IMG/VR virus record: IMGVR_UViG_3300035698_025855
Coordinates: 1-37,556 of that record
DNA length: 37,556 bases
Source: a virus
Strand: one strand, 5' to 3'
Shown here: positions 21,328 to 26,531 of the stretch, one piece after another
Layout: each line of letters starts with the position of its first letter
How positions within the stretch are numbered: position 1 is the first letter of the stretch
Notes under the pieces: model-generated
What the model was told of the DNA's origin: nothing
Databases searched by the model: none
What the model saw: the letters and a program-made list of their open reading frames with translations, nothing else
Translations under genes and position numbers: made by a program

Positions 21328-21958
21328 TTAACTATGGGTTGCTTCAAGGTTGGCCAAGAAAGCATCGTTCAATATCCTGGCGACAAATGGGTGCTGCCAT
21401 CCAATTGACCCCCTCTGGTGCAAGGGGTCGGCAGCTCCGGCAGAGCCAAGAGGCTCGACGTAGAACTCGCCACTCTCGCTACCGAGATGGACAACTGCAT
21501 AAGCTTCCTTACCAACGATTATGTTGTTATAAACAGCAGGGGAAGCAGCAGTGACGCTACCAACCGAGGTGTATAGCCAACGGACGTTCCCTGTTGCACC
21601 CCACTCTGCATCTAGAACTGTTTGTTGCGATGAGTAGTTGCTAGTATTAAGGAAGTTCGAGACATTCTCGAGGTCATCAATCAGGGCAGTATCGATATAC
21701 CCCCAGAAAGCTGGACGAGTTGGAGCGGTTCCGAACTTATCCACACCGGTTACGACCTCAGAGATCATCTCAGCATCGTTATTGAGCAGTGTCTGTACGA
21801 CGCTGTCGATATCAGCCTTAGTAAGCTCTGTTGGCGTGTTGCCGTTCGTTCCCTGCGAGCACTGGATAACAGTGCTAGTAGAAACAAGAACGTCTCTTGT
21901 GATCTCATCTATGGTCTGACCCATATTCTGAGCCAATAGACGCGAACCTTCGTTTAAG
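21328..21958 (-). CDS. N4-gp56-type major capsid protein, exon 2
   Basis: This supplies the last base of codon 105 and residues 106-314. It includes LNEGSRLLAQNMGQTIDEITRDVL, the helix usual after the TVxD segment in this family, then a domain with TKADIDSVVQTLLNND and FWGYIDTALIDDL, and a C-terminal segment GKEAYAVVHLGSESGEFYVEPLGSAG typical of the family. An open frame extends upstream through the intron to 22662, but the translated intron part has no capsid similarity, so it should not be read as an N-terminus. Ribosome entry at exon 2 alone is unlikely because there is no start near 21958. Confidence 0.88.
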
Positions 21959-22750
21959 CATTCTGTTACTTTCGGCTGAGCTTCGCCTACTGACCATGTT
22001 GCCATGGCGGGGAAACCTCTTCGGATCTCCCTCTCATTGTTACCAGTGAGTTCAGACTTTCGCATCTCGTCTAAGACGAGTTCTCTCGTTAAGTCGTTCA
22101 GCGTGACGCAAAAAGATGATTCGTTTAGAGTTGTGTGGCCCTGAATGAAAGGATAAACATGCCTAAACTCAAACCCTACGACCTGACTAATGTCACATCT
22201 TTGGATTTGGCTTACCTGGCCGGATTCATTGATGGTGAAGGATGCTTCTTCATCGGCCATCACATGTGTAAATCCGCCTGTACAGGCAATGTGTACCCCA
22301 ACTATCACACAATTCTTAAGATTTCTAACAATCATCTGGGTGTTCTTGAATGGGTTCAGGCTACTTTTGGTGGCCGAGTTACCAAGTTCAACAAGAACAG
22401 AATGAAAGACAGAAACTATTTTACCTATGATATTTACATGACCGGAAACCTTTTGACCGACATGTGCGCACTCCTTCTTCCTTACCTGAGGGTAAAGAAT
22501 GAGCACGCGCAGGTGATGCTTGAGATCAGAGAAACATTTTCCCGCACAGGAAGCAGCGGTCCCGTTAAACAAGACCAGCATGTTCTTGTAAAAAGAGCTC
22601 ACTTGCGCGAAAAAATGGTTAATCTTAACTCTCGCTTCAAATCTCATAAATATACTAATCATTTTCCTTCGTCTTCGCCCCTGTCTTCCTTAAGCTGCCT
22701 TAAGGAGGTCCAAGTCAATTAGAGAGAATTTATACAGGGCCCGTACGTTA
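21959..22750 (-). mobile_element. Group I intron in the major capsid gene
   Basis: A 792-base insertion on the capsid sense strand. The exon end ACAGGGT pairs with the internal guide GCCCTGT, 10 bases into the intron, with six Watson-Crick pairs and a U-G wobble exactly at the splice site, the group I P1 signature. The last intron base is G. Near the 3' end, GAACGACTT at 22099-22091 and AAGTC at 22059-22055 can form P7. Between them CTCGTC-TTA-GACGAG (22080-22066) forms P8. A hairpin CCATG-GCAA-CATGG with a GNRA tetraloop (22007-21994) fits a P9 extension, and CCTTAAG-GCAG-CTTAAGG near the 5' end fits P2. P3-P6 were not assigned. The phase-2 insertion removes cleanly and restores the capsid frame. 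Confidence 0.85.
22159..22722 (+). CDS. LAGLIDADG homing endonuclease, antisense within the capsid intron
   Basis: A 187-residue protein. One LAGLIDADG motif, LAGFIDGEG, lies at residues 20-28. It is followed by a family-like core (KISNNHLGVLEWVQATFGG, then YDIYMTGNLLTDMCALLLPYL and KNEHAQVMLEI). With a single motif it should act as a homodimer; the first acidic residue of the motif (D25) is a candidate metal ligand. The ATG at 22159 was chosen over 22135 because AAAGGA precedes it. It lies fully inside the intron but on the opposite strand, so it needs its own promoter. It probably cleaves intronless capsid alleles, spreading the intron. The last 12 residues overlap the antisense of intron P2. 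Confidence 0.9.
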   Translation: MPKLKPYDLTNVTSLDLAYLAGFIDGEGCFFIGHHMCKSACTGNVYPNYHTILKISNNHLGVLEWVQATFGGRVTKFNKNRMKDRNYFTYDIYMTGNLLTDMCALLLPYLRVKNEHAQVMLEIRETFSRTGSSGPVKQDQHVLVKRAHLREKMVNLNSRFKSHKYTNHFPSSSPLSSLSCLKEVQVN

Positions 22751-23064
22751 ACCCTGTCTTCAACGGTGAGTTCAACCTGGTTCGTGATGGTAACGAAGTT
22801 ACCGTAGAACGAGGCTTGAGCCTTAATATCTGTGACAGATAGTGGGGCTCCTGGTGGTGTGATGCCATCCACTAGAGGGATAGGCACTGTTGCAAGTCTT
22901 GCGTACCTGCGGAAAACTGCTGTATCACCCATCTTTTTAGGAATAAGACGCTTCTGTGCGAACTTTGCATGAACTAACCTAGGGTAGGCGGTCATTAAAA
23001 GTAAGCGGTCATAGTATTCTCTAATAGCGGGTGGAAGTACAGCAACAGTTGTAACGTTACTCAT
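22751..23064 (-). CDS. N4-gp56-type major capsid protein, exon 1
   Basis: Codes for residues 1 to 104 plus two bases of codon 105, starting MSNVTTVAVLPPAIREYYDR. The sequence (RYARLATVPIPLVDGITPPGAP, then ASFYGNFVTITNQVELTVEDRV) follows the N-terminal half of the N4-gp56 capsid family. Without splicing, translation runs 19 more codons into the intron and stops at 22690. Exon 1 (314 bases) joined to exon 2 (631 bases) gives 945 bases, an exact 314-residue reading frame. The splice point GT|C makes a valine followed by LNEGSRLLAQNMGQ, which restores the family pattern without gap. The scaffold gene ends 9 bases upstream. Confidence 0.88.
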
Positions 23065-24139: not shown

Positions 24140-24334
24140 CTAGTACTTGTAGTCCATGGCTTGCTGCGGATAGCCCCTGTTACTAGCGGGCTGATTCTTC
24201 ATACGACCAAGATCCGATCTCTGAGCGGCGAAAGGGTCGATGCTTTTAGGAGACTTGTCGTGCCCCATGTTGCCCTTACCTTTCATCCCAGAAGCCGAAC
24301 CGCCGTAGCCTTTGCTGCTATAGCCTTTCTTCAT
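24140..24334 (-). CDS. Small basic Gly/Ser/Lys-rich protein
   Basis: A 64-residue low-complexity protein (KKGYSSKGYGGSASGMKGK) ending in RGYPQQAMDYKY. It overlaps the portal stop by 4 bases, so it is coupled to portal translation. It is probably disordered and may contact DNA or the head. No family is recognised. Confidence 0.6.
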   Translation of the reverse strand: MKKGYSSKGYGGSASGMKGKGNMGHDKSPKSIDPFAAQRSDLGRMKNQPASNRGYPQQAMDYKY

Positions 24335-26406
24335 AAGACACCACCTTGTGGTTGCGGTTGTGTTGGTAGTTCCTCAAGCAGACCACCTACCTGAGGGATA
24401 TCCTGAGAAGGCCGGTTGGCCGCCTCCGAAATTTGTACATCGTCTGACTTGACCTGCTGCTCTTTCATACGGTTGTTTTCTTCCATCATCCGTACGATAG
24501 AGAGGTACTTCACCAGTCGATCGTCATCCATAGACTCGAGCTCTTTCATTGCCTTGACCCGCGTCAGTGCGGCATCTGATCGATCCTGGATAGACTTCGA
24601 CGCGCGCTCATCTTCAAGGCCCATATTTGCTATCGCACGGGTGAATCGTTCCTTGCTGAGGGCGATATCGCTGACAGCCTTGGCCTGGTCAGCCTGGCGC
24701 TTAGAGTCAAGCTGCGCCTGTATAAACTGCTCTTGCTTCTGCTGCTGCTGCGCCTGCTGCTGCTCCATCTGTGCGATCTGCTCGACGTACTTAGACTTAC
24801 CTTGAATTGGCGCTGCCTCAGCTAGCATCTCACCCGTGACAGGGGCTCCTAGCTGCTTCAGGTCCACGAGCTGACGGAAGTACATTTGCTTCTGTGTGTC
24901 CGTGAGGATCCCCTCTTGGATCGCCACGTCGTATTTCGTGAGGTCCTTATCCTTCAGCATCTGAGAAGGCTCTTCCCCAAGGATGCGCTGCATCTTCTCA
25001 GGGCTCCATTGCTGCATGAGCTTCACTGCCTTCTGGCTGACGTGCTTCTGTGCATTACGTAGCTTGTCGAATAGGTCCTGGAGATTGACGATAGCCGCTC
25101 CCTGTCGGAGCATCATCATGACGCCTGACTCCTGAGCGTTCTCAGTCTGACCAAAGGCCGCATCGTTAATACCGACGATATCCACTAGGTCCCGGTCGAA
25201 CATCTCCTGAAGCTGGAAGAAGGATGGCGGTATCTGTGCAGGGGGTATCTTCTCTATCGCGCCAGGAGCTGACCCCTCTTTGCGCCAGATGACCTTGCCC
25301 TGTGAAGACTGAAAGAGAGACTGAGGATTGATGACACTGTCACGGTCGGCTATCCAGCCGGAATTGATCTGAGAATCGAGCAGGTCCACCATCTGAGAAC
25401 GTCTTCTGTTGGCCTCGCGCTGTGGATCTATCATGCAGCGGACTAAAGATTGTGTTTTCAATTCCCACTGATCGGACTCTGGCTCGAAAATTGCCGTAAA
25501 TGGCACAAATGGGTACTCATCAAGACCATTTGGATTGATATCGGTACGAATAACGACGTCATTTACGATGATACTGCGCTCTATGTAGCGCTTTGGCCGC
25601 ATTACGATTTCCAGCTCTTCGTACTGATCAACGAATTCTTTGATAGCTGAAGCGCTCTTATCGATCTCTACAAGCTCACCTGTCTGGACATCAAGGACGG
25701 TCGGTACCTGCTTCCATTTCTGGAGGTACATCTCATTGAAGGCCATCATGTCCTGGCCATTAGGCTGCCGCTGGTATGGCAACCACGTGAACTTATCGTC
25801 CCGTGACCATCCGATGCGGGCTAGTTCGTAAATATCTTTGCTATCCTTTGGGAGGAGAGATGCGACGTGTTCAGGCGATAAATACTTTCGGCGTAGGATG
25901 TAGCCGCAGTCACTGAAGTCTAGCTTTGTGAAGTAGGGGTCTAGGATGAAGCCGTTGTAGGGCTCACGACCGAACCTAATGTCGCCAGAGATTGGGTCAT
26001 CACGATAATCGACCCATAGAGAAAGAAGATTCAGCCCTGTCTTTAACGCACCGCCAAAACAGTCCGAAATGCACTGATACCCGTCACCACTTTGCAGAAC
26101 GTATAGCAGTAGCTGCGTTAGTTGGTCTGCTGTCTGCTGATCTGCATTCTCTATGGGTACTGATACTGAAGAGAGGCGGTTCTTTCGCTGATATCCGGTA
26201 ACCATGTTGATGGCTCGGCGGACCTTATTGAAGACGAAGGCATTGCGCCCTTCGCTAAACAGGTGACGCTTTTCGCTCTGATCCCACTGGTCACCCAGAT
26301 AGAAGCGAAGGTCACGATCAGCGGCAGGAAAAAACGGAGACCAAGCCTGGTAGGCGTCGTTGTAGTAGGTATCAAACTCTTGAATAATCTCTAGATCTGA
26401 AGCCAT
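24331..26406 (-). CDS. Portal protein, P22-type
   Basis: A 691-residue protein beginning MASDLEIIQEFDTYY. The opening, then DLRFYLGDQWDQSEKR, NKVRRAINMVTGYQRKNR and the following segment match the P22-like portal family. The middle carries the DPYFTKLDFSDCGYILRRKYLSPE segment typical of these portals. The C-terminus from about residue 540 is Gln-rich and coiled (QQAQQQQKQEQF), probably a barrel. A portal forms the DNA entry ring at one capsid vertex and docks the terminase. The start at 26406 was chosen as the first ATG; a TTG at 26418 has no better ribosome-binding site. Confidence 0.88.
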   Translation of the reverse strand: MASDLEIIQEFDTYYNDAYQAWSPFFPAADRDLRFYLGDQWDQSEKRHLFSEGRNAFVFNKVRRAINMVTGYQRKNRLSSVSVPIENADQQTADQLTQLLLYVLQSGDGYQCISDCFGGALKTGLNLLSLWVDYRDDPISGDIRFGREPYNGFILDPYFTKLDFSDCGYILRRKYLSPEHVASLLPKDSKDIYELARIGWSRDDKFTWLPYQRQPNGQDMMAFNEMYLQKWKQVPTVLDVQTGELVEIDKSASAIKEFVDQYEELEIVMRPKRYIERSIIVNDVVIRTDINPNGLDEYPFVPFTAIFEPESDQWELKTQSLVRCMIDPQREANRRRSQMVDLLDSQINSGWIADRDSVINPQSLFQSSQGKVIWRKEGSAPGAIEKIPPAQIPPSFFQLQEMFDRDLVDIVGINDAAFGQTENAQESGVMMMLRQGAAIVNLQDLFDKLRNAQKHVSQKAVKLMQQWSPEKMQRILGEEPSQMLKDKDLTKYDVAIQEGILTDTQKQMYFRQLVDLKQLGAPVTGEMLAEAAPIQGKSKYVEQIAQMEQQQAQQQQKQEQFIQAQLDSKRQADQAKAVSDIALSKERFTRAIANMGLEDERASKSIQDRSDAALTRVKAMKELESMDDDRLVKYLSIVRMMEENNRMKEQQVKSDDVQISEAANRPSQDIPQVGGLLEELPTQPQPQGGVL

Positions 26407-26531
26407 TGCACATCCCAAGCGGTTTCAACGTTTCCTCCGCCAAGGAAAAAGTGCAGGGCCTAGGTAACGGCCTAGAACGGGATGATCAATCCCAACCCCG
26501 CGAAAACTAATTCGCGATAGTTGTTATCGGG

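Follow-up and report, generated by a model that had tools for sequence, protein, structure and literature searches.

The major capsid gene of the phage genome analysed here is broken at codon 105, and a gene read from the opposite strand lies within the break. We asked what interrupts this gene, how an intact capsid protein could be made from it, and why the inner gene runs antisense. The window, that is, the whole 37,556-base IMG/VR record, has its late gene block on the minus strand, with the portal gene at 24331-26418 and the capsid gene at 21328-23064. The interruption is very probably a mobile group I intron in the N4-gp56 capsid gene, with a separately made antisense LAGLIDADG endonuclease.

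The capsid gene and its rejoined frame

The two parts of the gene and their predicted junction are as follows.

22751-23064, minus strand: capsid exon 1, codons 1-104 plus two bases of codon 105; intact in relatives; 72 bits against TIGR04387 (profile 1-101)
21328-21958, minus strand: capsid exon 2; 122 bits against TIGR04387 (profile 104-321)
GACAGGGU/CUUAAA, minus strand: predicted ligated exon junction after removal of 792 nt

The earlier note had claimed that both pieces match the N4-gp56 family and that cutting at 22750/22751 and 21958/21959 restores a frame with no gap. Both claims were borne out, since joining 23064-22751 to 21958-21328 gave a frame of 945 nt (314 + 631) coding for 314 aa, and the joined protein scored 209 bits against TIGR04387 (NCBIfam, N4-gp56 major capsid) with no gap in the profile, the separate halves matching adjacent parts of it. 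The EDRV-LNE join expected in intronless homologues was found as well: of the 80 IMG/VR loci nearest to the window, more than 40 have an uninterrupted capsid gene, in which the join reads VEDRVLNE(S/A), and intronless relatives of 80 to 85% identity read VEDRVLNES across it.

A sense frame of 444 codons (21328-22662, minus strand) crosses the intron into exon 2, facing the endonuclease gene, and gene callers would label it a capsid protein with a false N-terminus. We rejected this frame as a real gene, as the conserved reading frame of the endonuclease lies opposite and the ribozyme core falls within it.

The group I fold of the insert

The structural elements assigned to the insert are listed below.

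21959-22750, minus strand: group I intron, 792 nt; P3-P9 covariation and a match to covariance model R1
22734-22757, minus strand: P1, formed by exon ACAGGGU (22751-22757) and IGS GCCCUGU (22734-22740), with U.G at the 5' splice site
22722-22728, minus strand: P3 5' strand UUCUCUC, partner 22081-22087; 7 of 7 pairs change on both sides
22671-22714, minus strand: P4 5' strand, P5 hairpin, P4 3' strand and P6 5' strand; P4 and P6 100% paired
within 22054-22107, minus strand: remainder of the group I core, namely, P6 3' (22100-22107), P7 5' (22091-22097), P3' (22081-22087), P8 (22066-22080) and P7' (22054-22059)
21959-22050, minus strand: P9, P9.1 and P9.2, followed by the 3' end AACAGAAUG, whose last base is G; from the alignment and the window fold

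Many relatives carry inserts of about 205 to 245 nt whose core is common with that of the window's insert. We aligned 26 related introns from which the endonuclease genes had been removed, and scored the base pairs expected of a group I fold. Across the P3-P9 helices, including the P3/P7 pseudoknot, 97.7% of the cells were paired, compared to 37 to 46% in controls with slid partners, and 29 of the 40 pairs changed on both sides (230 cells); none of 500 shuffles reached any of these measures. P3, P4, P6, P7, P8, P9, P9.1 and P9.2 were each 96 to 100% paired, while P5 was weaker (84.6%). Five of the six P6 pairs covaried, and P7 harbored the expected bulged base, its outer pair varying between A-U, G-C and U-A. 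Pairing of the exon with the IGS to form P1 was seen at nearly every insertion site, even at sites of very different sequence, that of one relative (L060) being imperfect. In the window intron, GNRA loops close P9 (GUAA) and P9.2 (GCAA), P10 is short, and the terminal G follows from the reading frame. The group I features cited in the earlier note, a U.G-ended P1, a last base G, P7/P8 and a GNRA hairpin, are thus all present, in a core that covaries.

Covariance model R1 matched the window at 22608-22757 (E 7e-21) and 21955-22179 (E 3e-44), flanking the endonuclease gene, but since the window was among the sequences of the model, this match is a consistency check only, and it is the covariation that constitutes the evidence for group I identity. 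The Rfam group I model RF00028, whose silence would, according to the earlier note, speak against an intron, gave no match on the window at E up to 10, nor, in a search run differently, at E up to 1, and Rfam searches of the window and its relatives at the gathering score and at E up to 10 returned nothing. Matches of RF00028 below its cut-off did overlap introns of relatives (E 5e-5 to 8e-5), with 21.2 bits and E 5e-5 at the site-291 intron of the L083 genome (positions matched by hand). As controls, the T4 td and nrdB introns reached 40.3 and 35.7 bits, respectively, both below the 50-bit cut-off. Since these two introns fall short as well, the silence of RF00028 on the window is uninformative, and the covariation among relatives is decisive. 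At the gathering score, RF00028 misses both introns in T4 (L280, T4 137000-146000), and annotation based on Rfam therefore reports too few group I introns in phages. A 2025 survey of Bastillevirinae phages likewise judged the RFAM group I model incomplete (PMC11878797).

An antisense endonuclease in a mobile intron family

Two features lie on the plus strand of the intron.

22159-22722, plus strand: homing endonuclease gene of the LAGLIDADG type (187 aa), antisense within the P6 loop; Pfam, PHROG 5046, I-MsoI likeness
22103-22153, plus strand: putative promoter GTGACG-17-TAGAGT (22103-22108, 22126-22131) followed by AAAGGA (22148-22153); weak in the window, 8/12

The endonuclease displays the motif LAGFIDGEG, matched Pfam LAGLIDADG_1 above the gathering score (E 8e-7) and PHROG 5046 (E 5e-24), and is I-MsoI/I-CreI-like by sequence. 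Its homologues differ mainly at third codon positions (e.g., 30/15/82). The longest open frame, of 195 aa, begins at GTG 22135; the true start is probably ATG 22159, which lies behind AAAGGA and matches the starts of homologues. As the earlier note had described, the gene is on the opposite strand over most of the intron (71%) and is antisense to intron elements, its last ~17 codons facing the P3-P6 5' strands.

The frequency of this orientation was determined from two IMG/VR scans with RNA-core patterns alone, blind to the interrupted gene and to the endonuclease. Among all loci fetched by then, 242 distinct introns belonged to the family of the window's intron, and 24 of these harbored a LAGLIDADG gene, located in P6 in 23 introns and outside P6 in L058. 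Every one of the 24 genes was antisense and none was sense, which, because the 24 cases share ancestry, makes the orientation a family trait and not 24 independent events. The gene outside P6 (L058 2452-3581) codes for a two-motif LAGLIDADG protein of 293 aa and lies in a site-67 intron. A second, unrelated intron family, found at sites 36 and 89 of the same capsid gene, carries its endonuclease gene (~250 aa) on the sense strand, thus indicating that the antisense orientation is not imposed by the host gene. Introns of this second family were seen at L029 412-1341, L049 2860-3788 and L074 2616-3543, and near residue 89 in L030 and L045.

The earlier note had further stated that the endonuclease is uncoupled from capsid transcription. 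In the 23 P6 cases taken together, a sigma70-like element was found ahead of the antisense gene, in the stretch separating P6 from the start codon. With a 17-nt spacer, its mean score was 8.57, compared to 6.53 ± 0.17 in dinucleotide shuffles (reached in 0 of 400), and 11 of the 23 cases scored at least 9 of 12, where 0.4 were expected, the best copies being those of L115 and L067 (11/12); spacers of 14 to 16 and 18 to 20 nt gave no comparable rise. This enrichment appears only when the relatives are aligned on the endonuclease start, and a generic promoter scan of the window returned a single site, at chance level. At the level of the family, this conserved promoter-like element hence supports uncoupling, while the window's own copy is weak.

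We also looked at where members of the family insert. In the capsid gene of relatives, inserts lie at about residues 18-20, 36, 67, 89, 105, 144 and 291. At residue 105, the intron is absent from L001, whose capsid is 85% identical, measures about 230 to 240 nt without an endonuclease in L014 and L074, and comes with an endonuclease in the window, L048, L075 and L083-L086, measuring about 770 to 800 nt with the gene antisense in L075 and L083-L086. As judged from sequence comparison, these same-site alleles (no intron, mini-intron, intron with endonuclease) show the intron to be mobile. A decayed endonuclease copy was found in L030, and several introns share one capsid gene in L103, L119 and L127 and in L116 and L289, the last two with up to four.

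N4-gp56 capsid genes host 84 of the 162 family introns with readable exons. Other interrupted genes code for P22-type coat, the major head protein phrog_9953, portal, tape measure and ribonucleotide reductase. Interruptions of P22-type coat genes were absent from the best 80 relatives, as is to be expected of loci picked as best matches to an uninterrupted query. Podovirus ctn9Y15 (L088, MW202674) has an unannotated family intron in a P22-type coat gene, called as two coat genes, and Nitratidesulfovibrio phage SRB7757 (L089, PV062637) has an unannotated intron of the same family. In GTDB genomes, a single pattern scan located the intron core in 11 stretches (L289-L299), on contigs labelled Paenibacillus, Bacillus pumilus, Enterococcus, Parachlamydia MAG, methanogen MAG and others; these bacterial and archaeal contigs are probably proviruses and could point to hosts.

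The closest known arrangement is that of mycobacteriophage LittleE (Pope et al. 2013), whose major capsid gene harbors a probable group I intron of ~819 nt, spliced in vivo, with a LAGLIDADG gene (gp14) on the bottom strand (PMC3706429). LittleE differs from the window in RNA core sequence and in capsid family, its endonuclease gene lies downstream of a P7-type core and not in P6, and the two endonucleases resemble each other only weakly (25% over 101 aa). An antisense capsid endonuclease has therefore been described once in phage, so that the rarity asserted in the earlier note holds for described cases, LittleE being one (PMC3706429), but not within the window's intron family. The idea that the antisense arrangement is unique to the window phage was rejected in view of LittleE and of the 24 antisense genes out of 24 in the family. 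The T4 td, nrdB and nrdD introns are also phage group I introns, and the td endonuclease gene likewise occupies the P6 loop, overlapping the core, but I-TevI and its relatives are encoded in sense and controlled through a hidden ribosome-binding site, and the interrupted genes are not capsid genes (PMC3073962). Antisense endonuclease genes with their own promoter occur in the Didymium rDNA introns (I-DirII, I-DsqI), which are group I introns but differ in residing in eukaryotic nuclear rDNA and in involving His-Cys endonucleases, RNA polymerase II and spliceosomal introns (PMC9548176, PMC3073962). Lactococcus phage Tuc2009 has a group I intron with an endonuclease gene in its major capsid gene, but the enzyme is of the HNH type and encoded in sense.

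Three other explanations of the split gene were weighed. If the insertion were dead, with a ribozyme that no longer splices, the phage or contig would be defective and the capsid truncated; the weak endonuclease promoter of the window fits such decay, but the window retains every core helix, its two exons are open and score well, and the frame of the endonuclease is likewise open, as well as conserved, so we consider this very unlikely. A capsid built from two subunits encoded by two genes would account for the second piece being open for 444 codons. That extension, however, has the conserved endonuclease frame opposite it and the ribozyme core within it, its equivalent in L086 closes ahead of exon 2, and intact homologues join the two parts exactly, which leaves the two-subunit capsid scarcely credible. 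As to the class of intron, the silence of RF00028 on the window would suit a group II or another intron, but group II models gave no match in the window up to E 10, and the covarying P3/P7 pseudoknot, the U.G in P1 and the terminal G are group I features; we give another class next to no weight.

A mobile group I intron would act as follows. The ribozyme would be transcribed as part of the late capsid mRNA and would excise itself, yielding the 314-aa capsid protein, while the endonuclease would be made from an antisense transcript starting within the intron. In co-infecting phages, the enzyme would cut capsid alleles that lack the intron, and the intron would be copied into them during repair. 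The antisense placement would keep ribosomes translating the endonuclease off the RNA strand of the ribozyme.

The Ala-Ala-stop ending of unspliced exon 1

Reading of exon 1 into the unspliced intron ends at the following element.

22690-22698, minus strand: GCA GCU UAA (Ala-Ala-stop) in P5; exon 1 read-through EDRV-NVRALYKFSLIDLDLLKAA*; the ending recurs here and at other positions

The tail of the window's read-through product is ...LLKAA*, in which AA fits an (L)AA ending, with K in place of L. We then counted this ending in every N4-gp56 capsid interruption found by profile, whatever the intron type. An Ala-Ala-stop closed 53 of the 107 interruptions, compared to 1 of 214 readings in the two alternative frames (Fisher p 3e-29). 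The endings use 20 nucleotide spellings and all three stop codons, they lie in P5 or P6 and also in introns that do not belong to the family, as well as in the P1 loop of the L088 P22-coat gene (by eye), and the commonest residue before AA is Leu (26 of 53). In genes other than N4-gp56, the ending was found in 13 of 45 interruptions, versus 2 of 90 in the other frames. Examples include the window, L030, L045, L069, L073, L091, L300 and L460-L609, and EQFALAA and RANLLAA are further tails of this kind.

Fresh loci from three clades gave 0 of 24 near L273, 50 of 75 near L256 (1 of 150 in the other frames) and 20 of 20 near L266 (1 of 40), or 70 of 119 versus 2 of 238 when pooled (p 5e-39, p-values ignoring relatedness). 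Because members of the L256 and L266 clades had already shown the ending, these two sets test its constancy within a lineage and not how often it occurs overall. Interruptions without the ending in the L256 set lie mostly at residue 35, a site at which the frame reaches a stop almost immediately. The ending is thus nearly fixed in some lineages and absent from others, and genomes with at least two interruptions tend to agree on their ending (71 of 5,000 permutations as high). Clades without AA show recurrent endings of their own, VVAxS*, EVVxN*, VYC* and VFA* (L273-like, L119, L171, L231 and L268), which may be a different signal or reflect an RNA constraint only.

The introns of mycobacteriophages LittleE and Baka, which splice in vivo (PMC3706429), share 156 bp. 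Their exon 1 read-through products end in ...WNSVATAAA* and ...SDDLAAAAA*, respectively, the AAA* of LittleE being a further likeness to the window. The ending is absent from T4 td (LG*) and nrdB (SFA*) and from Tuc2009, whose exon 1 ends in FPAWS*. We therefore rejected a universal Ala-Ala ending, given its absence from T4, Tuc2009 and the L273 clade.

The tmRNA (ssrA) tag, which directs proteins to ClpXP, has LAA at its C-terminus, and capsid fragments can poison assembly. Coupled transcription and translation in bacteria allow ribosomes to enter an incomplete intron (PMC3073962). Since fragments can poison assembly and ribosomes can enter introns, it would be advantageous to tag unspliced products, and the Ala-Ala ending may be an ssrA-like degron on unspliced capsid fragments. 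We lean towards the view that capsid-gene introns of several phage lineages, among them that of the window, encode a short peptide in frame with the upstream exon that ends in a (Leu-)Ala-Ala-stop tag, by which such fragments would be destroyed before they poison assembly. An RNA structural motif or a termination aid instead of a degron is a possible but rather unlikely source of the ending: some copies do sit in conserved helices (P6/J6-7 GCAGCGUGA), and one capsid clade is devoid of it, but the many spellings, the use of three stop codons and the several structural positions in unrelated introns argue against a motif of the RNA, as do its near absence from the other two frames and the prevalence of Leu before AA, as in the LAA of ssrA. 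In the open-access literature, we found no report tying introns to ssrA, a degron or ClpXP.

The combination of a ribozyme with an antisense capsid endonuclease already has its phage precedent in LittleE. What is new is a large intron family without an Rfam report, residing mostly in virion genes, and its antisense rule, which together with an internal promoter represents a further means, next to weak starts and a concealed ribosome-binding site, of keeping translation of the endonuclease away from the ribozyme. New as well is a frame-specific Ala-Ala ending on the unspliced product, seen at the amino acid level, which, if functional, would exceed a precedent of the LittleE type. Such an ending could account for the persistence of introns in the phage gene with the highest expression, whose product can poison assembly when incomplete. 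If this is true, the intron would carry its own protein quality control in addition to a ribozyme and an independently promoted antisense endonuclease.
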